From Bacteroidia bacterium (GTDB lineage Bacteria > Bacteroidota > Bacteroidia > Chitinophagales > UBA2359), in the NCBI GenBank assembly GCA_030427245.1, contig JAUHXA010000002.1, positions 1 through 64,000 of the forward strand: DNA of 64,000 nt, written 5' to 3'. Made by a program: the position numbers and the translations under genes. The stretch's first letter is position 1, and every line of letters begins with the position of its first letter. Under the pieces are notes generated by a model. That model made no database searches. It saw nothing but the letters and a program-made list of their open reading frames with translations, and had not been told where the DNA came from. Shown here piece by piece: positions 37,095-60,958 of the stretch.

Positions 37095-38846
37095 ATGAAA
37101 ACTTATCATCATGTAATTTTTAGAAACTTCAATTGGCAAAACTCTTTTTCTATCTATTTTCTTTTTGCCCTACTACTTATCAGTAGCTTCAATATTTCTG
37201 TATTTGCTCAAAGAACTATTCGACCTCAATCCAATCAAAAAGCACGTGTTTTTAACAACCGAGTTGCTAAGGTTCTTCCCATCAATAACAATACTGAAGA
37301 ATTTAATCCCACTACTCAAAAACGTGAAGTAGTTGAAGCAATGGTTGAATTGCCTTTCCACAAAACGGCTCAAAAAGTGAACGTTGAATTGGTGGACGGT
37401 ATGGCAATTATGGAAGGAGACATCGTATTAGGTCCCGCCATATTGTTCAATCCCGATGTTCAGGCTTCTGTCGTAATCAAAGGCAACAATTTTAGATGGC
37501 CAAATGGCAGAGTTCCGTATGTAATCAGCGGCAATCACCCCAAAACACAAACCATCTTGGATGCCATAGCTCATGTCAATGAAAAAACCAATGTCTGTGT
37601 TATTCCTCGCACAAATGAGCAAGATTACATCAAATTTGTCTATAAATCAGGTTGTTGGTCAATGGTCGGTCGTCAAGGTGGCGAACAAGAAATCAGCATT
37701 GGCAGCGGTTGTGGCTTTGGCGCAGCCGTTCACGAAATCTGTCATGCGATTGGAGCTTGGCACGAGCAATCTCGTGGAGACAGAGACAATCATGTTACGA
37801 TTCACTGGGAAAACATCAAAGAAGATAAAAAACACAACTTCAATAAGCACTCCGCAGATGGCATAGACATTGGCAGCTATGATTTTGGTTCGATTATGCA
37901 CTATGGAGCAACTGCTTTTAGTAAAAATGGTAAGCCTACCATCAGTAGTAAAGTGGCGGGCAAAACCCTTGGACAACGTACAGCATTGAGCGCAAAAGAC
38001 ATTGCAGGAATCAAGGCAATTTACCCAAATTCGGTGGGTTGTGGAACTGATATTTCTTGGGTTTCGCATCACGGTATGACTTCTGCCGAATATCAAAAGA
38101 AATTCAATCAATATGTCGGTCAAAGCAAAATGACCTTGACCCATGTAAGCGGCTACAATGTGAATGGCAAAGATTACTACGCTGCAATATGGGAAAAACA
38201 AAACAATCCTCCAGCATGGGTCGCTCGACATGCCATGACTTCTGCCCAATACCAAGCCGAATTCAATAAATGGACAAAAGCAGGTTATCGCCCCACAACA
38301 GTAAGCGGATACAGCGTGGGCAACTCTGCCAGATATGCAGCAATTTTCAGAAAAGTATCAGGTGGTGCATGGGTCGCTCGACACGGTTTGACGTCGGCTC
38401 AATATCAAACAGAGTTCAACAAATGGACGAAAGCGGGTTATAGCCCTGTGGTTTTGAGTGGTTATGGTGTAGCAGGAAAGGATTACTATGCCGTGGTTTT
38501 TGAGAAAAAATCTGGCGGGGCATGGGTAGCCCGACACGGTTTGACGTCGGCTCAATACCAAGCAGAATTCAATAAATGGACAAAAGCGGGTTATCGCACC
38601 GTGAATGTGAGTGGCTACTATGCCAATGGCAGCGATAGATATGCAGTTCTTTTTGAGAAAAAATCTGGCGGGGCATGGGTTGCTCGACACGGTTTGACTT
38701 CCAGTCAATACCAAGCTGAGTTTAACAAAAACAGCAGATCAGGCTATGAATTGATAGATGTAAGTGGTTATTCAAAAGGTAGTAGTTCGAGATATGCTGC
38801 AATCTGGCAGAAACCTTCAAATAGATTTGCATTGAAGAGGAAGTAG
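37095..38846 (+). CDS. Secreted astacin (M12A) metalloprotease with five BTRD1 repeats
   Basis: 583 residues. A signal peptide ends near residue 38 (FNISVFAQ). The propeptide (40-130) contains the MEGDIVLGP segment typical of astacin-like pro-regions. The catalytic domain (about 130-312) has the zinc motif HEICHAIGAWHE at 213-224 and the Met-turn SIMHY at 266-270, so it should be active. From residue 320 to 575 there are five repeats of about 51 residues with the pattern WVARHGLTSAQYQAEFN...GYxxxxVSGY...RYAAIWxK, matching the bacterial tandem repeat domain BTRD1. The repeats probably bind substrate or surface polymers. Repeats 3-5 are the most alike. It has no sorting domain of type IX secretion. 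Confidence 0.92.
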   Translation: MKTYHHVIFRNFNWQNSFSIYFLFALLLISSFNISVFAQRTIRPQSNQKARVFNNRVAKVLPINNNTEEFNPTTQKREVVEAMVELPFHKTAQKVNVELVDGMAIMEGDIVLGPAILFNPDVQASVVIKGNNFRWPNGRVPYVISGNHPKTQTILDAIAHVNEKTNVCVIPRTNEQDYIKFVYKSGCWSMVGRQGGEQEISIGSGCGFGAAVHEICHAIGAWHEQSRGDRDNHVTIHWENIKEDKKHNFNKHSADGIDIGSYDFGSIMHYGATAFSKNGKPTISSKVAGKTLGQRTALSAKDIAGIKAIYPNSVGCGTDISWVSHHGMTSAEYQKKFNQYVGQSKMTLTHVSGYNVNGKDYYAAIWEKQNNPPAWVARHAMTSAQYQAEFNKWTKAGYRPTTVSGYSVGNSARYAAIFRKVSGGAWVARHGLTSAQYQTEFNKWTKAGYSPVVLSGYGVAGKDYYAVVFEKKSGGAWVARHGLTSAQYQAEFNKWTKAGYRTVNVSGYYANGSDRYAVLFEKKSGGAWVARHGLTSSQYQAEFNKNSRSGYELIDVSGYSKGSSSRYAAIWQKPSNRFALKRK

Positions 38847-48871: not shown

Positions 48872-48905
48872 AAAAAAAGAGGAATCACAATCTGCAATTC
48901 CTCTT
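48872..48905 (-). terminator. Rho-independent terminator after the LTD protein gene
   Basis: AAGAGGAAT (48877-48885) pairs with ATTCCTCTT (48897-48905); on the minus strand TTTTTTT follows. It lies 31 bp past the stop codon. Confidence 0.82.
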
Positions 48906-48935
48906 CCACTTATAATTAAAACAATTTTTAAACTC

Positions 48936-51320
48936 CTATCTCTGAATAGCAATTTTCTTCACCACATTGCTACCTTCAAATTCCAATCTCACAAAATACA
49001 TCCCAACAGGCACTTCCGAAACATCTATGCTGTTACCGTTTATCTTGGCTTCGGTCATATTTTTACCCACAAGATTGTACAAATGAACAGTAAACGGACT
49101 ATTCACATCCGATACAATGTTAATCAAAGTATTTGCAGGATTCGGGTACATACGAATTTTGCCTTCTAAAAAAACATCATTGATAGACGACACCATCTCA
49201 TCATTTTGAACACCTGGAGTTCCTTTTTGTCCGCCTTCTTCATCATACGTAAGCGTAGAAAAAGACCAGTTTTCAGGTCGGTTGTTGCCTTCTGCGGTCA
49301 TCGCCATCGGATCTACCTTCAACATAAAGGTAACTTTGGAAGAACTTCCTGCTGGGGGAATGCCTATTGGAGCAGTATTGTCCATGCAATCACCAGAATC
49401 TTCATTGCCAATGTATTCACCATAACCATAATCGTAGCGTACTTCATCTACCAATGAACCATCTGCTTTCGCAATGATTACGCCATCAGGACAAGAAGTA
49501 TCTCCTTCGTCGGCATAGCTACTTTCGTTGTTGAAGCTTGGTTTTTTATAGTCGTAAAAGTAATCAAACACTACTCCTCCTTGTGCTTCTGGAATATTGA
49601 AGCCAGAGAAAACCGCATAGGATTTTGGGGCAAGGGTAAAGCTGCCAATCGTAGAAACATTGGAAGAACTCGATGCATCCGTCAATGTCCAACCATCCAT
49701 AACGATAGGTTCGTTGGTCGTATTATAGACTTCAAACCATTCGGTGTGTCCTTCATTTGGAGAAGTGTCTGCTCCGTCAGGATTGTTGGGAAGGGCAGCC
49801 GCCAATTGTTCATCCGTAGGTTTTTGTGGTCGGTTGTGGTATTCGGTGATAATCACCTCACCAGAACCAAAATCAGCAGGATTTGGAGGCAAACTACCGT
49901 CATTTGCCAAACCTGGCGTTCCTACTTGGTTGTTTTCTTCATCATATACAATCGTAGAGAAAGTCCAGTTTTCAGCCTTATCGTTCTCTCTGGAGTTCAT
50001 AACCATAGGATCTACCTTCAACATAAATGTAACTTTGGAAGAACTTCCTGCTGGAGGAATGCCTATTGGAGCGGTATTGTCCATGCAATCACCAGAATCT
50101 TCATTGCCAATGTATTCGCCATAGCCATAATCGTAGCGTACTGCGTCCACCAAAGAACCATCTGCTTTTGCAATGATTACACCATCGGGACAAGAAGTAT
50201 CTCCTTCGTCGGCATAGCTGCTTTCGTTGTTGAAGCTTGGTTTTTTGTAGTCATAGAAGTAGTCAAACACGACACCGCCTTGCGCTTCTGGGATATTGAA
50301 GCCAGAAAAAACCGCATAGGATTTTGGGGCAAGGGTGAAGCTCGTAATGGTGGAAACATTAGAGGAACTTGAGGCATCTGTCAATGTCCAACCATCCATC
50401 ACGATAGGTTCGTTGGTCGTATTATAGACTTCAAACCATTCAGTGTGTCCTTCGTTTGGCGAAGTATCTGCTCCGTCAGGATTGTTTGGGAGAGCGGCAG
50501 CCAATTGTTCGTCCGTAGGTTTTTGTGGTCGGTTGTGGTATTCGGTGATAATCACCTCACCAGAACCATAATCAACAGGTTCGCCCACACTGCCATCATT
50601 TGCCAAGCCTGGTGTTCCTTTTTGGTTATTTTCTTCATCATACACAATCGTAGAAAAGGTCCAGTTTTCAGGTCGGTCATTCGCTTCTGCATTCATGACG
50701 GTAGCATCTACTTTCAACATGAAGGAAACCTTAGAAGAGCTTCCCGATGAAGGAATACCGATTGCTGCTGTATTTTCCGAACAATCAGGAGAATCTGGAT
50801 TACCAATGTATTCGCCATAGCCATAATCGTAGCGCACTTCATCCACCAATGAACCATCTGCTTTCGCAATGATTACGCCATCAGGACAAGAAGTGTCTCC
50901 TTCATCGGCATAGCTGCTTTCGTTGTTGAAGCTTGGTTTTTTGTAGTCGTAGAAGTAGTCAAACACGACACCGCCTTGCGCTTCTGGGATATTGAATCCA
51001 GAAAAAACCGCATAGGATTTTGGGGCAAGGGTGAAGCTCGTAATGGTGGAAACATTAGAGGAACTTGAGGCATCCGTAAGCGTCCAGCCATCCATGACTA
51101 CGGGTTCGTTGGTCGTGTTATAGACTTCAAACCATTCCGTGTGTCCTTCATTTGGAGAAGTGTCTGCGCCATCTGGATTGTTGGGCAGAGCCGCCGCTAA
51201 CTGTTCGTCAGTCGGTTTTTGTGGTCGATTGTAATATTCGGTAATGATTACCTCTCCTGAGCCTTGACCAAAGGCACTTGCAGAGAGCAAAAGTAATAAA
51301 GTGAGTAAGTAAAATCTCAT
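48936..51320 (-). CDS. Triple lamin-tail-domain protein with type IX secretion sorting domain
   Basis: 794 residues: signal peptide (1-19, LLLLLSASAFGQ), three repeats of about 233 residues (20-251, 252-484, 485 to about 715) and a C-terminal sorting domain (about 720-794, IRMYPNPANTLINIVSD ... SNVVKKIAIQR). Each repeat contains the lamin-tail signature VIITEYHNRPQ, EWFEVYNTTNEP, DGWTLTD and LAPKSYAVFSG, followed by a second region with DGVIIAKADGSLVD and SSSKVTFMLKVDP. There is no catalytic domain. It should be exported by type IX secretion and anchored or released at the surface. The repeats are near-identical and equal to those fused to the PL6 lyase in the next gene upstream. Likely role: adhesion or polymer binding. 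I infer, but cannot show, that it binds the lyase substrate. Confidence 0.88.
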   Translation of the reverse strand: MRFYLLTLLLLLSASAFGQGSGEVIITEYYNRPQKPTDEQLAAALPNNPDGADTSPNEGHTEWFEVYNTTNEPVVMDGWTLTDASSSSNVSTITSFTLAPKSYAVFSGFNIPEAQGGVVFDYFYDYKKPSFNNESSYADEGDTSCPDGVIIAKADGSLVDEVRYDYGYGEYIGNPDSPDCSENTAAIGIPSSGSSSKVSFMLKVDATVMNAEANDRPENWTFSTIVYDEENNQKGTPGLANDGSVGEPVDYGSGEVIITEYHNRPQKPTDEQLAAALPNNPDGADTSPNEGHTEWFEVYNTTNEPIVMDGWTLTDASSSSNVSTITSFTLAPKSYAVFSGFNIPEAQGGVVFDYFYDYKKPSFNNESSYADEGDTSCPDGVIIAKADGSLVDAVRYDYGYGEYIGNEDSGDCMDNTAPIGIPPAGSSSKVTFMLKVDPMVMNSRENDKAENWTFSTIVYDEENNQVGTPGLANDGSLPPNPADFGSGEVIITEYHNRPQKPTDEQLAAALPNNPDGADTSPNEGHTEWFEVYNTTNEPIVMDGWTLTDASSSSNVSTIGSFTLAPKSYAVFSGFNIPEAQGGVVFDYFYDYKKPSFNNESSYADEGDTSCPDGVIIAKADGSLVDEVRYDYGYGEYIGNEDSGDCMDNTAPIGIPPAGSSSKVTFMLKVDPMAMTAEGNNRPENWSFSTLTYDEEGGQKGTPGVQNDEMVSSINDVFLEGKIRMYPNPANTLINIVSDVNSPFTVHLYNLVGKNMTEAKINGNSIDVSEVPVGMYFVRLEFEGSNVVKKIAIQR
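49180..51263. repeat. Three tandem ~700-bp DNA repeats encoding lamin-tail domains
   Basis: Units run about 51263-50568, 50567-49869 and 49868-49180. Long blocks differ by only one or two bases: about 50275-50375 and 50972-51070 are almost identical, while other blocks match the third unit better, giving a mosaic. Such a pattern points to recent duplication and gene conversion. Confidence 0.85.
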
Positions 51321-51367: not shown

Positions 51368-54300
51368 TTACCTCTGAATAAGCACCTTCTTCACCACGCT
51401 GCTATCTCCCACATTCAATCGCACCAAATAGATACCAACAGGCACATCTGAAATATCAATGCTTCTATCCACGACCTTGGCTTCCGTTACCTCCTTACCC
51501 AAAAGGCTGTACAATTGAAGGGTAAACGGACTTTCTAACTCCGAAACGATGTGGATAACCGTATTGGCGGGATTCGGGTACATGCGAATTTTGCCTTCCA
51601 AAACAACATCGTTGATAGAAGTCCCCATTCCGTCATTTTGGATGCCTGGCGTACCTTTTTGGTTGTTGGCTTCATCATAGACAATCGTAGAAAAAGTCCA
51701 GTTTTCGGGTAAGTTGTTCCCTGCTGCGGTCATTGCTGACGGACTCACTTTCAACATAAAAGTAACCTTTGAAGAACTTCCTGCTTCGGGAATACCAATT
51801 GCAGCATCATTGTCTCTACAAGAACCAGCACTCTCATTGCCAATGTAATTTCCATAGCCATAATCGTAAAGCACTTCATCTACCAAAGAACCATCTGCTT
51901 TGGCGATAATGACACCATCAGGACAAGAAGTATCTCCTTCGTCAGCATAGCTACTTTCATTGTTGAAGCTCGGTTTTTTGTAGTCGTAGAAGTAATCAAA
52001 CACGACTCCACCTTGTGCTTCTGGGATATTGAAGCCAGAAAAAACCGCATAGGATTTTGGGGCAAGGGTGAAGTTCGTAATGGTGGAAACATTGGAGGAA
52101 CTTGAAGCATCCGTCAAGGTCCAACCGTCCATCACTACAGGCTGATTTGTTGTATTATAGACTTCAAACCATTCCGTGTGACCTTCATTTGGTGAAGTGT
52201 CTGCTCCATCAGGATTGTTGGGCAGAGCCGCCGCTAACTGTTCGTCAGTGGGTTTTTGTGGTCGGTTGTGGTATTCGGTGATAATCACTTCACCAGTACC
52301 AAAACCCACAAGGTCAGGGGGTAAACTACCATCATTCGCCAAGCCTGGCGTTCCTATTTGGTTGTTTTCTTCATCATAGACAATCGTAGAGAAAGTCCAG
52401 TTTTCAGCCTTGTCGTTCTCTCTGGAATTCATAACAGCAGGGTCCACTTTCAACATAAAGGTAACTTTTGAAGAGCTTCCTGCTGGGGGTATACCAATTG
52501 CAGCTTCCGCATCCATACAAGAACCAGAATCTTCATTGCCAATATAATACCCATAACCATAGTCATACCGTACTTCGTCTACCAAAGAACCATCTGCTTT
52601 GGCGATAATCACACCATCGGGACAAGAAGAATCTCCTTCGTCAGAATAACTACTTTCGTTGTTGAAGCTCGGTTTTTTGTAGTCATAAAAGTAGTCAAAC
52701 TCTACACCTCCTTGCGCTTCTGGAATATTGAATCCTGAAAAAACGGCATAAGATTTTGGCGCAAGGGTGAAGCTCGTAATGGTGGTGACATTGGAAGAAC
52801 TCGATGCATCTGTCAATGTCCAACCGTCCATTACTACAGGTTCATCGGTCGTATTATAGACTTCAAACCATTCTGTGTGTCCTTCATTTGGTGAAGTGTC
52901 TGCTCCGTCAGGATTGTTGGGAAGAGCTGCCGCCAATTGCTCATCCGTAGGTTTTTGTGGTCGGTTGTGGTATTCGGTGATGATTACCTCACCAGAACCA
53001 AAATCCGAAAGCTCTGAAGGGAGAAGGGAAGTATTGTAACTCGGTCCTGTATTTTCCTCCCTTGCAATGGGTTGTATCAAAATGTTGTGTGGGTATTCAT
53101 TGCAGCCCAAATCTCTTTCTTCAATGGTTTGTGGACGTTCCTGCCCCATCAAATCAAATCTAACATTGGCATCTATCGGCTCCATTCCTTCAAATTGTGG
53201 CAAATCGGCATAACCTGATTTTGCAGCATTAATCGCAGGGCTACTTTCCGACAAACCGAAAAAACCTGCACTGTTTTCTACCAACTCTGGGTCAACAATG
53301 GTCATTTCATCATCTTCCAGAAGCAGTCCTACATCGCCAGATGCGATATTACTAAACCAAGTTTCATTTCTTGTTCGCTCGACAAATAAAAACTCCTTGG
53401 GGTCTGCAAAAATATTGTTGGCAATCGTCACATTGGTTGGTTCATTAGAACCTCCTGAACCTCCCAAAATAACTGGCTCACAATTGATGACCGTATTGAA
53501 GGCAATGTTGATATTGTCCAAGGGGTCAGAGGCCTCGTTCTGCAAAAAGATGGGGCGGTCATCAATATCATAAAAGTAATTGTTGTAGATATAGTGGTCT
53601 TGACCTTCTCGCACTCTAACTCCTCCTTTTCCATTCAAAAAGAAATTGCCATAGACAATCGCCTCCGAACCATGACGCAATACCAATTCCGACTTTGGAT
53701 TGTTTTCAAAGGTATTGTAGCGATAAACATTCTGCCCTGCCTTGCTCGAAATGATTTCACCATCTCCATCACACTTTGTGAAATAGCAATACTCTACCAA
53801 CGAGCGACTGTTGAAGTCCGCTTGTGTACTGACTCCAATCCGAATCGGTTCAATTCCCATGTCGTTGCCCTCACCTTCAAAATTCTTGAAAGAGCAATAT
53901 TGTACTTTGTGATAGCCTGGGTTGGTGGCATCTACCAAAATCGAAAGGATGTTTTGGTCGTCCAGATTCAGCCGATTCTCAAAATTGCAGTACGTCACTC
54001 GATTGTATTGACATTCCTCTCGTATCCTCAAATATTTATACGACCTGTAGGCTCTGATGTTGATTTGTGTAAAGTGACAATAACTACCATACACGTTGAT
54101 GACATCATTCGTTCCAACGTTGCCACCCACAAATTGAACGCCCTGCAATGTGATATAATCACCCGAAACTCTCACCCTCGAACTTCCATTAAAAACCGTT
54201 TGACCCAATGCCTCGGCTGCAATAAAAAGGCGGCTTTTGGTGATGTTCATATAGATGTCCGAAAAAGTACCCGATTCCCAAATAATGGAGTCGTTCGCTG

Positions 54301-54436
54301 CGGCACTGCTTTGTGCATTGTCGAATTCTGACTGAGAACTCACCTTGAAAACCTCTGCATTTAGGGTGTTTGTGCATAGAAAGATGCAGAAGGTAAATAG
54401 TGCCTGAACGGAAAGAGATAATTGTCTGTCTATCAA
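51368..54436 (-). CDS. PL6 polysaccharide lyase fused to two lamin-tail domains and a sorting domain
   Basis: 1022 residues. After a signal peptide (1-27) comes a PL6 beta-helix (about 30-475) with repeated NxF/YxxN turns. The catalytic pair is Lys232 in IISSKAGQN and Arg254 in LVLRHGS, spaced 22 residues; chondroitinase B and AlyGC have 21. PL6 enzymes cleave alginate (poly-MG) or dermatan sulphate by beta-elimination with Ca2+. Two lamin-tail repeats follow (about 480-712 and 713-945), almost the same as those in the next gene, and a type IX sorting domain closes the protein (950-1022, IRMYPNPANTVIHIVSE ... VVKKVLIQR). It should be a surface-exposed or released endolyase, with LTD units probably binding substrate or cell wall. 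The 47-bp gap to the triple-LTD gene suggests one operon. Confidence 0.9.
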   Translation of the reverse strand: MIDRQLSLSVQALFTFCIFLCTNTLNAEVFKVSSQSEFDNAQSSAAANDSIIWESGTFSDIYMNITKSRLFIAAEALGQTVFNGSSRVRVSGDYITLQGVQFVGGNVGTNDVINVYGSYCHFTQINIRAYRSYKYLRIREECQYNRVTYCNFENRLNLDDQNILSILVDATNPGYHKVQYCSFKNFEGEGNDMGIEPIRIGVSTQADFNSRSLVEYCYFTKCDGDGEIISSKAGQNVYRYNTFENNPKSELVLRHGSEAIVYGNFFLNGKGGVRVREGQDHYIYNNYFYDIDDRPIFLQNEASDPLDNINIAFNTVINCEPVILGGSGGSNEPTNVTIANNIFADPKEFLFVERTRNETWFSNIASGDVGLLLEDDEMTIVDPELVENSAGFFGLSESSPAINAAKSGYADLPQFEGMEPIDANVRFDLMGQERPQTIEERDLGCNEYPHNILIQPIAREENTGPSYNTSLLPSELSDFGSGEVIITEYHNRPQKPTDEQLAAALPNNPDGADTSPNEGHTEWFEVYNTTDEPVVMDGWTLTDASSSSNVTTITSFTLAPKSYAVFSGFNIPEAQGGVEFDYFYDYKKPSFNNESSYSDEGDSSCPDGVIIAKADGSLVDEVRYDYGYGYYIGNEDSGSCMDAEAAIGIPPAGSSSKVTFMLKVDPAVMNSRENDKAENWTFSTIVYDEENNQIGTPGLANDGSLPPDLVGFGTGEVIITEYHNRPQKPTDEQLAAALPNNPDGADTSPNEGHTEWFEVYNTTNQPVVMDGWTLTDASSSSNVSTITNFTLAPKSYAVFSGFNIPEAQGGVVFDYFYDYKKPSFNNESSYADEGDTSCPDGVIIAKADGSLVDEVLYDYGYGNYIGNESAGSCRDNDAAIGIPEAGSSSKVTFMLKVSPSAMTAAGNNLPENWTFSTIVYDEANNQKGTPGIQNDGMGTSINDVVLEGKIRMYPNPANTVIHIVSELESPFTLQLYSLLGKEVTEAKVVDRSIDISDVPVGIYLVRLNVGDSSVVKKVLIQR
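51600..52999. repeat. Two further ~700-bp lamin-tail repeats within the PL6 gene
   Basis: Units run about 52999-52301 and 52300-51600 and match the three units at 49180-51263, making five copies within 4 kb. The central block coding for NIPEAQGGV...SFNNESSY is nearly constant in all. Confidence 0.85.
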
Positions 54437-54758: not shown

Positions 54759-54864
54759 CTCGTCTAACGAGTGGAATAGTTCGTGGTCTTGGGTTGAACT
54801 CCTAAGGAGTTCTGTGATTACTCTCCTTATTTTTCTACAAATATTCAAGTCCTAACGGACTTCC
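54759..54864. repeat. Bacteroidota palindrome cluster (CTCCTAAGGAG / TATTTGTAGAAA type)
   Basis: Three palindromes follow each other: CTCGTCTAACGAG (54759-54771), AACTCCTAAGGAGTT (54797-54811) and AAGTCCTAACGGACTT (54847-54862), the last two separated by a TTTTTCTACAAATATTC spacer. The spacer plus last palindrome is repeated at 57430-57464. The layout matches an interspersed repeat I have seen in Bacteroidota intergenic DNA, function unknown. Confidence 0.6.
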
Positions 54865-54879
54865 TACATCCCGCTTCCC

Positions 54880-54934
54880 ACTTCTTGCTTCTTACTTCTT
54901 ACTTCTTACTTCTTACTTCTTACTTCTTGCTTCT
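54880..54934. repeat. 7-bp microsatellite (ACTTCTT)n
   Basis: About seven or eight copies of the unit ACTTCTT, with GCTTCTT variants at both ends, lie directly after the PL6 lipoprotein stop codon (54939). On the coding strand this is (AAGAAGT)n. Similar AAGAAG-rich tracts occur at about 57328-57345 and 4574-4590. Confidence 0.75.
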
Positions 54935-54938
54935 ATAA

Positions 54939-57275
54939 TTAATACACCAACTTCAATTTCAAATTCTCCTCCACTACTATCTTCCCAGAATTTACTATTT
55001 CATTCTCCGAATGTGTATTGTTCTTTGCACCCCACAATAGCGCAACCAATTTCACGGGGTTGTTTTTGAAGGTATTTTTTGAAATATCCACGTTGATAAT
55101 ACCTCTCGTATTCAACAAAATACCGTTCTCCTCTGCTCTACCACAATTGGTAAAAGTGCTATTCGTCACCGACAAATTACCTCCAATGGTAGATTCATCG
55201 TAACCACCTCTATAGTAGTCAATCACATTCTTTTCGATGCCTTCAAAGGTGCATTCATCAACCGTCAAAAACTCCACATTGTAGTCGCCTTTGTCATTGG
55301 TTTCTTCCGAAAGTTCGATGCCGTTTTTGCAGTCTTTGAAGCTCGTTTCGACAAAAGAAATTTCATCTGCAAAAGACTCTTTGTAGGCTTTCAGGACATA
55401 ATTGAAGTTGCTAATTTCACAACCCATTACCTCCAAATTGTACAAACTCGACATGTTTTCCTTCAAACTCGCAAAAGCATATTGCGTTTTTTCACCTTCC
55501 AAAACCACATTATTCAAGGTGAGTTTCCCTTTTGGTTGCATCTCAAATAGAGGCGTATTTTCTCCGCCCGTATAAAGAATGTGAGCCTTGGCAGTGGCAT
55601 CTGATGATTGAATCGTTATCGTTTTATTGATGACCAAAGGTTCTGCAATCGCATAATCTCCAGCACTCAAAGCCACAATGTCGCCATCCTTTGCCTCCGC
55701 AATTTTTGCCGCCAAATCTCCTGCATCAGCAGAAGTTGTAAGCGTTGTAGCAGGATTTGCAGCTTTTTCATTGGAGAACCAAGGCGCACCGTATTTTTTC
55801 TTGTCCAAAATCATGGGGTCAGCAGAAGGGCTTTGGGTCATTGCGCCAATGGTGTTTTTATTGGAGCGAGTATTTCCGAAAATATCTTTCTCAATCGTTT
55901 CAAAATCAAAACCTACAAATACTTCTTTTTCTTCCAATCCCGATTTGGGCGCAAAAATGTATTGAGCGACTTCTTCCATTTCAAAAGAAGCAGCGGCCTC
56001 CAAGCCTTCTTGCTTGTCAAAGTCCACACCTTGATTGTTGATGAGGTTGTTTTTGAAGTCTATGCCATCCACTTCGTCGTGGGCAACGACGGGCGTTGGG
56101 TCGCCTTTTTCGGTGTAGTAAATGAGGTTGTTCGCAACGGTGGTTCGGATAGGTCTTGCAGAGCGAATTTCGGATAGCGGAAGCACCTCTTTTTGGCTGA
56201 TGTTTGTTCCTACACCAAAATGCCAAGGAGCAGCACAGTCTACCCAAGTATTGTGGGCAACAACTACATCCGTCACCTGATTGTAGCGGTTCAAAGGTGA
56301 TTTTGGGATGCCATTCATCACCGCCAAAGGGCTCCTAAATTCTTTGCCCTTCAAATCGTAAAAGTAATTATTGGTCACCCAATGCCCTGTATTAATCAAT
56401 CGAACACCTCCTACATTGTCTGAACCATCTCCAATGAAATAATTGCCGTCAATGATGCAGTAGTTTCCATGCCGTGTTACCAAAGAACCTTCCGACTTGT
56501 AGAACACATTGTTTCGGAACTCATTGAAGTTGGTCTTGCTCGAAATCACCTCGACTTCCCCATTACATTCTTCAAATAAATTGTTCGCCACCAAAGTATT
56601 AGAGGGCGACATGGAAGTGTAACTGTCCCCCAATTGAAGGGTTTCTGCTTTTGGCCCTCCCTTGCGTGGACGTGGCCCGAAGTGATTGTGGATGATTTTG
56701 TGGTAGTTGCGAATACTTTCATTGCCCTTGATGTCGACTCTCACTGTTGGGCCCTCATTCGATTTTCCCGCCAAATAGCAATGGTCTAATTGGTTGTGCC
56801 TGCCCGAAAATTCAACCCAATGGTCTTTTTTATCTCTTTGAGGCTGATTGTAATCTTCAATCACACAATTCGTTACCCTACAATGATTCGCCACTTGCTT
56901 ATTGTCTGTAATAAACTGAATCACATTGTCAGAAGGTGTGTATCCATTCCTGAAATACAAACCATCAACTACTAAGTATTCTCCTCCAAACTTCAAATCC
57001 GACTGCCCTTCAATAAACACTTCACCTGCAGTTTCTGCCCTCAAAATGATGGGGTTACCTTCTTCACCCTTTGCAGTAAACACTATCTGAACATCTTTCC
57101 AAGTGCCATTCGCCAACACGATTTCGTCACCAGGTTTGGCATTGGTAAGTGCCGTTTGCAGCTCTTCTTTGGTTTTGACTACTCCGCCCGTTTTTCCTGT
57201 TTTGCTCGTTTGAGTTGTTTCTTGACAGGCAAAAAATAGAAAAACAATGCTTAAAAAAGTTAGGTATTTGTACAT
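54939..57275 (-). CDS. PL6 family alginate lyase-like lipoprotein (two beta-helix domains)
   Basis: The start at 57275 (MYKYLTFLSIVFLFFAC) gives 778 residues with a lipobox Cys17; a longer frame from 57350 would hide this signal. The N-terminal PL6 beta-helix (about 35-480) has the catalytic Lys247 in VISSKTNFN and Arg268-His269 in VTRHGN, spaced 21 as in characterised PL6 enzymes, and the substrate-site stretch GPRPRKGGPKAETLQLGDS. The C-terminal half (about 500-778) is a second beta-helix, as in the two-domain alginate lyases of the AlyGC type. It should be anchored in the outer membrane and cleave alginate, probably exolytically (inferred from domain layout). It lies between a sugar isomerase-like and the PL6-LTD gene on the same strand. 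Confidence 0.9.
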   Translation of the reverse strand: MYKYLTFLSIVFLFFACQETTQTSKTGKTGGVVKTKEELQTALTNAKPGDEIVLANGTWKDVQIVFTAKGEEGNPIILRAETAGEVFIEGQSDLKFGGEYLVVDGLYFRNGYTPSDNVIQFITDNKQVANHCRVTNCVIEDYNQPQRDKKDHWVEFSGRHNQLDHCYLAGKSNEGPTVRVDIKGNESIRNYHKIIHNHFGPRPRKGGPKAETLQLGDSYTSMSPSNTLVANNLFEECNGEVEVISSKTNFNEFRNNVFYKSEGSLVTRHGNYCIIDGNYFIGDGSDNVGGVRLINTGHWVTNNYFYDLKGKEFRSPLAVMNGIPKSPLNRYNQVTDVVVAHNTWVDCAAPWHFGVGTNISQKEVLPLSEIRSARPIRTTVANNLIYYTEKGDPTPVVAHDEVDGIDFKNNLINNQGVDFDKQEGLEAAASFEMEEVAQYIFAPKSGLEEKEVFVGFDFETIEKDIFGNTRSNKNTIGAMTQSPSADPMILDKKKYGAPWFSNEKAANPATTLTTSADAGDLAAKIAEAKDGDIVALSAGDYAIAEPLVINKTITIQSSDATAKAHILYTGGENTPLFEMQPKGKLTLNNVVLEGEKTQYAFASLKENMSSLYNLEVMGCEISNFNYVLKAYKESFADEISFVETSFKDCKNGIELSEETNDKGDYNVEFLTVDECTFEGIEKNVIDYYRGGYDESTIGGNLSVTNSTFTNCGRAEENGILLNTRGIINVDISKNTFKNNPVKLVALLWGAKNNTHSENEIVNSGKIVVEENLKLKLVY

Positions 57276-57388
57276 ATTGTGTAAAGCTTTTGTTTGTTTT
57301 ATAGATTGTTTGTTAATAATTAGACTTTGGACGAAAGAAGTAAGAAGCAAGACATTTATTACAATGTTTGGGTTGAATGGAAACCTGT

Positions 57389-57429: not shown

Positions 57430-57464
57430 CATTTTTCTACAAATATTCAAGTCCTAGTGGACTT
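57430..57464. repeat. Second copy of the TTTTTCTACAAATATTCAAG repeat
   Basis: This stretch, with the palindrome AAGTCCTAGTGGACTT at 57449-57464, repeats 54830-54862 with two changes in the palindrome centre. The two copies flank the PL6 lipoprotein gene as direct repeats. Confidence 0.65.
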
Positions 57465-57515: not shown

Positions 57516-58484
57516 CTATATATCCTTCCACACCTCCCTCAAAAACCTCAAATCTTTCTCTATCTTCTCTAAAACCTCTTCTTGTGGAATAGAAATCTCC
57601 GCTTTGCCTTTCTCTGCTCCTCCAAGGTCGTATTCCACATGCAGCGAAACAGGCACGTTGATTTGATATTCCTTCAATAGCTGAAAAAATCGCTTGAAAT
57701 CAACCATTCCTTCACCCAATGGTACATGAACAGGTTTCCATTTGCCATCCACTTGTTCCCACTTAAAATCTTTGATAACCAAACTATTGATTTGGTCTTT
57801 GACAAGCCTCAATGCTGTCTCCCAACTCGTTCCACCTTCTACTGTTGCATGGCGAATATCGTATTGAAAACCTAAGTGTTCGGGGCTAATTCCCTCCAAA
57901 ATCTGATGGGTATCCCAAATTGCCGCACCCACATAATTTTTGCCGGCATGATTTTGATAACCTCCCGCCAATCCGAGTTGCTGATTGAGTTGAGCCAATT
58001 TTTTGAATTGCTTGCGATACAATTCCATGCTCTCTTGAATATCTCTATCCAAAGGATATTTCAACCAACCCGTTCTGTAACATTGATAGCCCAACTTGCT
58101 TGCCGTTTCCAGTACTTTTTGGTCAAGCGGATTGTCGACATCTGTCACATTAGTCGTCCATAAATCGGGACGAAACCCAACTTCTTTCAATGCTTCCGTT
58201 GCTTTTGGAAGGTCTCGCTCCACGTTTTCGGGTAATACGTGACCTTTTGGGCGCACGGTCAAATCCACTCCATCAAAACCCATTTTCTTTGCCGCTTTTG
58301 CCATTTCTCGGTAGTCCAAAAACTGAAGGTGCTTTGAGAAAATATGGACTTTTAGGTCATTGGAAGTAGTAGGAACCTTTGCCAGCAAAGGACTTGCACC
58401 CAATAACGAAACACCCCCTACGATTGCAGCGGATTGTTTTAGAAAATTTCGTCTTGTGGGTTTTGTTTTGAACATTTTTTTCAA
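57516..58484 (-). CDS. Tat-exported sugar isomerase/epimerase-like TIM barrel
   Basis: 322 residues with a twin-arginine signal (TRRNFLKQSAAIVGGVSLLG, residues 9-28). The rest is an AP-endonuclease-2/xylose isomerase-like barrel: KMGFDGVDLTVRPKGHVLPENV near the first strands, NHAGKNYVGAAIWDTHQIL, GFQYDIRHATVEGG and VSLHVEYDLGGAEKG with the His and acidic residues that usually bind metal. Such proteins in lyase and hydrolase loci are thought to act on oligosaccharide or uronate products, but the reaction is not established. It lies between the PL6 lipoprotein and the heparinase-like lyase, all on the same strand. Confidence 0.87.
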   Translation of the reverse strand: MKKMFKTKPTRRNFLKQSAAIVGGVSLLGASPLLAKVPTTSNDLKVHIFSKHLQFLDYREMAKAAKKMGFDGVDLTVRPKGHVLPENVERDLPKATEALKEVGFRPDLWTTNVTDVDNPLDQKVLETASKLGYQCYRTGWLKYPLDRDIQESMELYRKQFKKLAQLNQQLGLAGGYQNHAGKNYVGAAIWDTHQILEGISPEHLGFQYDIRHATVEGGTSWETALRLVKDQINSLVIKDFKWEQVDGKWKPVHVPLGEGMVDFKRFFQLLKEYQINVPVSLHVEYDLGGAEKGKAEISIPQEEVLEKIEKDLRFLREVWKDI

Positions 58485-58741: not shown

Positions 58742-60958
58742 TTAAAACCCAATACTTTCCCCTGACTTCAATACCTTTTCATCTTTCCCTCCAATATTCA
58801 CTTTCACCTCTTCCACTCCAATAGATTGCAGCTTTCGCTCCCCGTCTTTCCAAGAAACAAACACATCCGTTTCAGCCGAAAATTGAAGTTTAATTCCTTC
58901 TATCTCTACCTCACTCACTCCAAAAAGAATTGCTTCCTCCTGTTTAGACAATGCCTGATTCCCTTTCCATTCAAAAGATAAATCATTCAATTTCCAATTG
59001 CCGAGCGTGGGGATTTTCTCTTCTTCGTTCATTCTATCACTGTATTTTTCAAAAGGATAAACGACCGTAATGAAACTAAAATCGTTCTGTCCTTCCTTTT
59101 TGACAACCGACCATTGTTTGCCCCTTTTTCCAGATTGGACAACAGCATCCACCGACTCCAACTGCAAAATATCGCAGCCGCTTCCATCTACAAAAGAACT
59201 TCGCAATAAGTTCGCCCCATTTTCGTCGGTATAATGCCCCTGCCAAACCTGTTTGTATGTGTGTGTATCTTCTGCTTCAAAGTTGTCTTTGATTATCCAA
59301 AAAACGTCTTTTAGGTAAATCACCTGACGAGAATAACTGACTCCAATATTGGAGAATCCATCATGTGAGCCTACAAAACAATCCATTTGTTCATCGCTCG
59401 TCCAAGCAATCACTTTGGGGTTTGGCAGTTCTCGAAACTTCCCAAAACCACTACCCCCTTTATTTCCTGTCCACTGTTTGCCTTGCAGTTCATCGTCCAC
59501 CAAAGCCACGTTTTTGACCATCGAATTTTTGAACCAATCGAAGTCCTTCAATGAGTAGCGTACTTGGTAGTTGGGTAAAATCACATTGCCGCTTACCATT
59601 GCTTGAATGCCCAACATATCGCCATGTTGATGGTCGGGTTTGTCGGCATCCAAACCTGCCGAAACAATCATCATTTTGTCCTTCTTTCCCCAACCTTCCC
59701 GCATGATGTAGTAGCCTGTTTCGGGGAAAAAAGTAGAGCCAATTTTGGGCTGGGTTCTGTCAATGGATTTGAGTGCGTCCAATTGCTTTTTCTGCAAAAA
59801 CCAATACATTTTCTCCTCCACTTTGCTCTCTGCAAAATAGCCAAATTCGGGATTGTCAAAAAGCAAATAACCCAAGGTCATTGTTCGGGCAATTTTATTT
59901 TTCTCTGCCCAAGGGTCGTCTGTATCGTCTTGCAACACAGGAGCAGTTTTGTCGGGATAGGCAATTTTGACCAAGGTTTCAAAAAGCGATTGCAGCCTTT
60001 CTTTCCAAACTGCATCTACTTCAATACCGCTGATTTGCGCCAATTGATAGACATAAAAATAGTTGGAAATATCGCTTAGGTGGTAATGCACTGAGCGTTC
60101 AAACTGAAAACCGTCCGAATTGATTTCCTTGTCGAGATGTTCGCCCAAGCGGGTCATTGCCCGCTTGTACCACAAATCTGCTTCTTCAAAATCTCGAAAC
60201 AATATCGCCAACATTGCCAAAGCAGACATGCCTCTTGTTTGGTGATTTCCATAGCGAAATTTGTCATTGTGTGCATACAAATGTGCGCCATGTTGCAACA
60301 AGGTAGCTATCGTGTAGAGTTGGTCACTGTCGGAATAGGCTTTTTCTCCCAAAAACAAATTGTGGATACTCAACCAATTCAGCACCCGATACCCCGCTCT
60401 AAAAACTTCATATACGCCATTTCCATCTTCGATTTTTTCATACTCTCCATTCTCCAATGCCACATTGAGGGATTGCATTTGTCGGGTGAAATAGTCAATG
60501 TATTTTGGATTTTTGTCTTCGTAAAAATAGAGGTAAGCAATGTCCATCATTTTGTGCTGCCGAGCCAAGTGCCGCAAAGCGTAGGCATTGACGGGTTCTC
60601 CGTTTTGGTAATTGAAGGGTAACTTCCACAAAGTGGAATCTGCATATTTTGATAGATGATCGTTTGCTCTTGAAGTGTGTGATTTTTCATTTCCATATAA
60701 ATCATTGTAGCGGTCAAATCGGCTATCAACGATTTGCCAATCGTAGAAAAAGCGCTCTTTGAAGTTTTGTCTGAAATGGGCTGCTAATACTGCTTCTGAA
60801 ATATTGCCATTGGAGTGAAGGGTCTTGTATATTTCTTTTTTGAGGTAATTGGGTAATTCTTCTATTGGAAGAATTTTATCAGAAGGTATTTCTTGTGCTT
60901 GAAGGAAGCAGTAAGAACAGGTGAGTAGGAAGATAAAAAGTGTTAGGGAAAGCCTCAT
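58742..60958 (-). CDS. Heparinase II/III-fold polysaccharide lyase (PL17-like oligoalginate lyase)
   Basis: 738 residues with a signal peptide (1-21). Residues 60-370 form an alpha/alpha toroid with RYGNHQTRGMSALAML (Asn238-His239) and SDGFQFERSVHYHLSD (Tyr292); residues 400-738 form the heparinase II/III beta-sheet domain with DKPDHQHGDMLGIQAM (His443, His445, Asp447). The Asn-His/Tyr/His set is that expected in PL17, PL15 and PL39 lyases. Next to PL6 enzymes the likely activity is exolytic cleavage of alginate oligomers to unsaturated monouronate in the periplasm, but other uronate substrates cannot be excluded. It is the most upstream gene of the minus-strand lyase run. Confidence 0.87.
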   Translation of the reverse strand: MRLSLTLFIFLLTCSYCFLQAQEIPSDKILPIEELPNYLKKEIYKTLHSNGNISEAVLAAHFRQNFKERFFYDWQIVDSRFDRYNDLYGNEKSHTSRANDHLSKYADSTLWKLPFNYQNGEPVNAYALRHLARQHKMMDIAYLYFYEDKNPKYIDYFTRQMQSLNVALENGEYEKIEDGNGVYEVFRAGYRVLNWLSIHNLFLGEKAYSDSDQLYTIATLLQHGAHLYAHNDKFRYGNHQTRGMSALAMLAILFRDFEEADLWYKRAMTRLGEHLDKEINSDGFQFERSVHYHLSDISNYFYVYQLAQISGIEVDAVWKERLQSLFETLVKIAYPDKTAPVLQDDTDDPWAEKNKIARTMTLGYLLFDNPEFGYFAESKVEEKMYWFLQKKQLDALKSIDRTQPKIGSTFFPETGYYIMREGWGKKDKMMIVSAGLDADKPDHQHGDMLGIQAMVSGNVILPNYQVRYSLKDFDWFKNSMVKNVALVDDELQGKQWTGNKGGSGFGKFRELPNPKVIAWTSDEQMDCFVGSHDGFSNIGVSYSRQVIYLKDVFWIIKDNFEAEDTHTYKQVWQGHYTDENGANLLRSSFVDGSGCDILQLESVDAVVQSGKRGKQWSVVKKEGQNDFSFITVVYPFEKYSDRMNEEEKIPTLGNWKLNDLSFEWKGNQALSKQEEAILFGVSEVEIEGIKLQFSAETDVFVSWKDGERKLQSIGVEEVKVNIGGKDEKVLKSGESIGF

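Follow-up and report, generated by a model that had tools for sequence, protein, structure and literature searches.

A secreted protein of three lamin-tail modules encoded beside PL6 lyases in a marine-type Bacteroidota genome

The enzyme-free secreted protein LTD3, encoded at 48936 to 51320 on the minus strand of the window (the whole 64,000-nucleotide stretch of DNA analyzed, from a marine-type Bacteroidota genome), is of the non-catalytic module kind familiar from polysaccharide loci, here built from a subfamily of lamin-tail domains (LTDs). Most occurrences of the module are in Bacteroidota that degrade alginate. In Flavobacteriaceae, one module with a sorting domain lies inside alginate-type loci, and in Saprospiraceae and related Chitinophagales the module is multiplied to two to four. 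We consider that LTD3 probably serves as a non-catalytic accessory of alginate degradation, exported by the type IX secretion system (T9SS) and multivalently retaining alginate near lyases. The module probably assists alginate breakdown, most likely as a candidate binding part; that it would bind alginate is a guess from genomic context.

LTD3 is 794 amino acids (aa) long, read from an open reading frame with an ATG start. Its first 19 residues (MRFYLLTLLLLLSASAFGQ; 51264 to 51320, minus strand) resemble by eye a signal peptide, which lacks a lipobox cysteine and whose end abuts the start of the first module at residue 20. Modules A1 (residues 20 to 251; 50568 to 51263), A2 (residues 252 to 484; 49869 to 50567), and A3 (residues 485 to 715; 49176 to 49868) follow on the same strand, with lengths of 232, 233, and about 231 aa, and together they match the Pfam LTD profile three times (5.9e-34, 117 bits against a cutoff of 34.3). 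Single modules of this type score 42.7 to 44.4 bits each for PF00932, above the same cutoff, and thus qualify as lamin tail domains. The C terminus is a type IX sorting domain (PF18962/TIGR04183; residues 724 to 793; 48942 to 49151, minus strand), matched by Por_Secre_tail over residues 724 to 792 (2e-12) and by TIGR04183 (6e-12), and its modeled structure matches the solved T9SS sorting domains 8glk_D and 8glj_D. With its by-eye signal peptide and this C-terminal domain, LTD3 has the makeup of a type A T9SS cargo, and a working T9SS is likely in the host genome given the many other sorting-domain genes there. No catalytic family was found in LTD3 with Pfam profiles; short matches to XkdW and DUF7276, about 30 residues each, were regarded as chance. 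A consensus scan placed a terminator-like stem-loop with a T-tail downstream of the gene (48875 to 48907, minus strand), in an apt position, but such sites are about as frequent in the region as chance predicts.

The next gene upstream, 47 bp away, encodes a fused lyase of 1,022 aa with a TTG start (51368 to 54436, minus strand). It comprises a PL6-type catalytic domain (residues 32 to 317; 53486 to 54343), modules B1 (52301 to 52999) and B2 (51602 to 52300), and a Por_Secre_tail sorting domain (51377 to 51583), all on the minus strand. By sequence it belongs to PL6, as it matches the β-helix family PF14592 (1.5e-33) and PL6 alginate lyase structures (up to 1e-23), and its SSKAGQN and LRHG motifs line up with their counterparts in structurally solved PL6 enzymes, with the catalytic Lys and Arg kept. 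The earlier note had counted five modules in one operon-like unit, and the two co-directional genes, the short gap between them, and the terminator-like stem-loop after the last gene fit this count and arrangement. Farther upstream on the same strand lie a full, AlyGC-like PL6 alginate lyase (54939 to 57350; PF14592 at 9e-201, AlyGC structure 5gkd at 9e-128), a xylose-isomerase-like TIM barrel protein (57516 to 58484; PF01261), and a heparinase II/III-type lyase (58742 to 60958; PF16889 and PF07940), whose best structural matches are heparinase III. The TIM barrel protein has a Tat-like start and also adjoins PL6 in L075 and L104. Its sequence does not place the heparinase-type gene in PL17; the genome's PL17 sits on contig C31. 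A gene 58% identical to the heparinase-type gene lies in the alginate-type locus L075 of Mariniflexile fucanivorans, beside a PL17-type gene.

Contig C31 of the host genome carries an alginate locus with a GntR regulator, SusC/SusD pairs, a PKD protein, PL7, an Nramp-type transporter, PL17, a major facilitator superfamily (MFS) transporter, and a reductase. The Nramp-type metal transporter (PF01566; L105:13561-14805) has similar-looking open reading frames in the same place in two relatives (L102:18865-19998 and L103:447-1709). In the window, an identical 25-base palindrome, AAGTCC-N4-GGACTTGAATATTTG, lies upstream of both PL6 genes (54838 to 54862 and 57440 to 57464, minus strand), two exact copies against 0.01 expected. 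It may be an operator or a dispersed repeat; the alginate locus on C31 showed no copy, so the palindrome lends no support to a common regulon. Between the two PL6 genes, a 7-base tandem repeat, ACTTCTT, runs for about eight copies (54880 to 54934) and could be phase variable or neutral. Elsewhere in the window, at 37095 to 38846 (plus strand), an astacin-type metalloprotease is followed by five polyglycine-hydrolase-like repeats (PF17660).

The earlier note's anatomy of LTD3 (signal peptide, three modules, sorting domain, no catalytic part) holds, but its description of the modules as equal does not. Modules A1 to A3, B1, and B2 share 86 to 94% identity in protein and 81 to 87% in DNA; a whole-genome search found no further full copy of this module type in the host, where LTD matches number 22. 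Synonymous divergence (dS) between the five is 0.5 to 1.2 and reaches 1.4 over residues 1 to 150, where dN is 0.009 to 0.026 and dN/dS about 0.01 to 0.04; the C-terminal third is less constrained (dN/dS of 0.12 to 0.46). The modules are thus old copies under strong purifying selection and not fresh repeats, recent tandem duplication or recent gene conversion being ruled out by the inter-module dS of 0.5 to 1.4. They form one clade against all relatives (support 100/98) and were therefore multiplied or homogenized long ago within the host lineage. Within this clade A2 pairs with B1 and A3 with B2, linker and sorting domain included.

A scan of 84,980 species genomes returned 13 loci, one of them a relative already known from the window's own family, and a Flavobacteriaceae-level sample added two more, one distant (L101). 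Carriers comprise 15 strict loci and the distant one, 16 in all with the window. Enzyme-free proteins with their N terminus in view occur in 11 genomes and bear one to four modules: four in L065; three in the window, L066, and L068; two in L070 and L073; and one in L067, L075, L076, L077, and L100. The gene runs off the contig in L069, L071, and L072, and the sole copies found in L074 are fused to PL6. The module is rare, being present in 2 of 20 genomes of the window's family, 6 of 248 in a Saprospiraceae-level sample, and 4 of 397 in the Flavobacteriaceae-level sample. A phylum-wide sample had one carrier among 395 genomes, the host itself, so that co-occurrence could not be judged from it. 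The distant protein, with two LTD modules (L101:8941-10482), belongs to a SusC-SusD-PL6 locus, with a TIG-domain protein intervening, an arrangement suggesting that the LTD family of alginate-type loci is a wider one. Two loci combine LTD modules of the present kind with DDCDDN-type repeats (L072:1-2661 and L074:7160-12646); the L074 repeats match PF11617, a putative metal-binding motif.

Function is suggested by the company that the module keeps. PL6 stands beside the module gene or is fused to it in 10 of 16 loci (L065, L066, L068, L069, L074, L075, L076, L100, L101, and the window, with one gene between the two in L101), an adjacency with a probability of about 8e-17 under an assumed 1% chance per genome. 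Two further loci are alginate catabolic clusters: L072 has PL17 and homologs of uronate catabolism genes (aldolase, sugar kinase, reductase, and transporter), and L077 has such catabolic genes together with SusC/SusD. No lyase was found near the module gene in L067, L070, or L073, and the contig of L071 is too short to tell. The co-occurrence with PL6 or PL17 to which the earlier note had looked is found at the genome level as well, with PL6 in 14 of 16 carriers and PL17 likewise in 14 of 16; two metagenome-assembled genomes of unstated completeness (G457 and G459) have the module and showed neither. Within the Saprospiraceae-level sample of 248 genomes, 5 of 6 carriers have PL6, against 71 of 242 non-carriers (P = 0.011, a statistic that ignores kinship). 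The remaining LTD genes of the host genome served as a control: none lies near its PL6 genes.

Fusion to lyases has arisen more than once. In L065, L066, and L069, separate lyases encoded next to the LTD gene and convergently with it are 68 to 69% identical to the catalytic part of the fused lyase in the window. A second PL6 type has a gene of its own next to the LTD gene in L068 and in L074 forms one protein with three modules; the lyases of these two loci are 65% identical. The two types share about 29% identity, and both keep the aligned catalytic Lys and Arg. Since each is separate in some species and fused in others, LTD arrays have been captured at least twice. The unfused orthologous lyases have a different sorting domain, whereas that of the window's fused lyase is allied to LTD3's, which indicates that the sorting domain arrived with the modules. 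The relation implied by calling LTD3 a companion of the lyase is therefore in part the other way round, since it is the enzyme-free protein that is widespread and the LTD-bearing lyase that is the derived fusion. A descent of LTD3 from a lyase that lost its enzyme is disfavored, because the enzyme-free state is the common one and because the fused lyase gave up its original sorting domain for another. Fused to two PL6 types, the module also shows the non-catalytic attachment to carbohydrate-active enzymes that characterizes a carbohydrate-binding module (CBM).

The module of about 230 aa has a helical insert (residues 19 to 28), an aromatic and acidic stretch (about residues 96 to 128), and a C-terminal extension. 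In AlphaFold models (mean pLDDT of 62 and 71, with the core mostly at 70 to 90 and low confidence for residues about 146 to 230), the best solved fold for the core is the lamin A/C Ig domain (Z = 8.5 to 8.9), and the module is accordingly predicted to have a lamin-type Ig fold. The LTD core and C-terminal extension also match the DUF4876 protein BT_1938 (4q1z; Z = 8.7, root mean square deviation of 4.0, 160 residues aligned). A carbohydrate-binding or alginate-module fold does not stand out when the models are compared with structures, which does not imply its absence; a sequence search of solved structures with the module profile gave no match, and Pfam gave no carbohydrate-binding family in LTD3 at E = 0.1. 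The module is strongly acidic (net charge of −21 to −32 in the host lineage, pI of about 4), with 13 conserved acidic positions and few conserved basic residues (R13, K16, H41, K108, K134, and K178). Its conserved positions include H41, E43, D64, Y103 to Y107, and N113 to E115, and the aromatic/acidic motifs are invariant across relatives down to 55% identity. C126 and C161 are invariant in one module alignment and may form a disulfide.

We propose that LTD3 would be exported, its sorting domain then cleaved, and the protein either retained at the cell surface or released. Acting multivalently in the manner of CBMs, the repeated modules could then hold alginate, probably as the Ca2+ gel and via bound Ca2+, near surface lyases; the scaffold or adhesin of the earlier note would be a reasonable guess for such a protein. 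Known alginate-binding modules bind through Lys and Arg (PMC9971899; PMC13235733), and the strong acidity of the LTD module argues against direct binding of this kind and is the chief weakness of such a reading. Its acidity, its few conserved basic residues, the missing CBM family match, the three loci with no lyase nearby, and the two carrier genomes that showed neither PL6 nor PL17 all speak against the binding reading. Because the module is acidic while known alginate-binding modules use basic residues, we considered calcium bridging; the acidity suggests either this or a non-binding role. A more specific version, in which the module recognizes Ca2+-cross-linked alginate via bound calcium and not a basic groove, on a multivalent enzyme-free surface protein that was independently recruited into PL6 lyases by fusion, is offered tentatively and taken as a whole is rather improbable.

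An alternative hypothesis is that the modules are structural, forming a stalk of stable Ig-like spacers with no affinity for glycans, whose task is to raise or shield some surface component; length would then matter, hence the variable copy number. The predicted lamin-type Ig fold, the range of one to four modules among the enzyme-free proteins, the presence of LTDs in many unrelated proteins of the host genome, and the acidic surface are all consistent with such a stalk. However, a dN/dS of 0.01 to 0.04 (typically about 0.02) over residues 1 to 150 at dS of 0.55 to 1.4 is a constraint that a passive spacer does not need, and the aromatic/acidic motifs hold across the relatives. In addition, the five single-module enzyme-free proteins have nothing to lift, and the module is tightly linked to a single substrate class, so that we regard a stalk as possible but unlikely. 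A second alternative is that the acidic modules handle calcium, binding Ca2+ and loosening or docking onto the calcium cross-links of alginate gel to give lyases access. The net charge, the conserved acidic positions, and the joining of modules to DDCDDN-type repeats in L072 and L074 (with the PF11617 match in the latter) point this way, as does the dependence of the Ig-like domains of CelAly, a T9SS enzyme of Aquimarina, on the three-dimensional alginate gel network (PMC13235733). In contrast, the module showed no known Ca2+ motif, model confidence in the loops is too low for a site to be named, and a stoichiometric Ca2+ sink is implausible in sea water; such a role is improbable in our judgment. 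It is highly improbable that the module is itself an unrecognized enzyme with alginate, or a polymer linked to it, as substrate: its extreme conservation, which extends to H41, E43, D64, Y103 to Y107, and N113 to E115, would fit catalysis, but no enzyme family matches it, its best solved folds are lamins, and the fused protein already contains a lyase with its catalytic Lys and Arg intact.

The earlier note's suggestion that LTD3 takes the place of SusD where SusC/SusD are missing has in its favor that no SusC/SusD was found in the window (nor within 6 kb of the cluster; the nearest pair lies more than 67 kb along the contig in another gene group), but it can be set aside as hardly credible, because SusD-like genes occur in 16 of 16 carriers, the host has its regular SusC/D-PL7-PL17 locus on C31, the LTD gene shares a locus with SusC/SusD in L076, L077, L100, and L101, and LTD3 has no lipoprotein signal, its T9SS export differing from SusD anchoring. 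Nor did LTD3 match the SusD-like families PF07980 and PF14322 at E = 0.1. The LTD protein therefore adds to SusD and does not replace it.

Lamin-tail domains are frequent in exported bacterial proteins, mostly without known ligand, and here genomic context names a likely substrate, alginate. The module is nearly unchanging in its core, stands beside lyases in many species, and has twice been fused to them. If the proposed binding is true, it would provide a function for a lamin-tail subfamily and a type IX-exported accessory for alginate utilization loci. In the literature searched, we found no paper that connects either alginate loci or type IX secretion with lamin-tail domains.

Among known systems, the surface glycan-binding proteins of polysaccharide utilization loci (PKD proteins next to SusD, or those of the SusE/F type) are likewise non-catalytic surface proteins of polysaccharide loci. 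These are lipoproteins. LTD3, unlike them, bears a T9SS sorting domain, and a PKD protein is additionally present in L077 and in the C31 locus. With PF00932 proteins exported by other bacteria, such as extracellular nucleases, LTD3 shares the Pfam match and the lamin A/C core fold; in contrast to those nucleases, its module is about 230 aa with extra parts and is associated with alginate loci instead of DNA degradation (PMC8289736). The DUF4876 protein BT_1938 is the only solved structure seen to match both the LTD core and the C-terminal extension, at 12% identity and by comparison with a partial, low-confidence model. CBM96 and other alginate-binding modules (PMC9971899) are also tandem non-catalytic modules on alginate lyases, but the known ones bind by a Lys/Arg groove, whereas the LTD module is very acidic and matches no CBM family. 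In CelAly, the Ig-like domains B1 and B2 bind alginate gel (PMC13235733), a precedent for the role proposed here. CelAly differs in its Big-type Ig domains, basic binding residues, and PL31/GH5 enzymes, and a text search of PMC13235733 gave no lamin-tail modules; like the LTD modules and their fused lyase, it unites a T9SS sorting domain, repeated non-catalytic Ig-like domains, and an alginate lyase in one protein.
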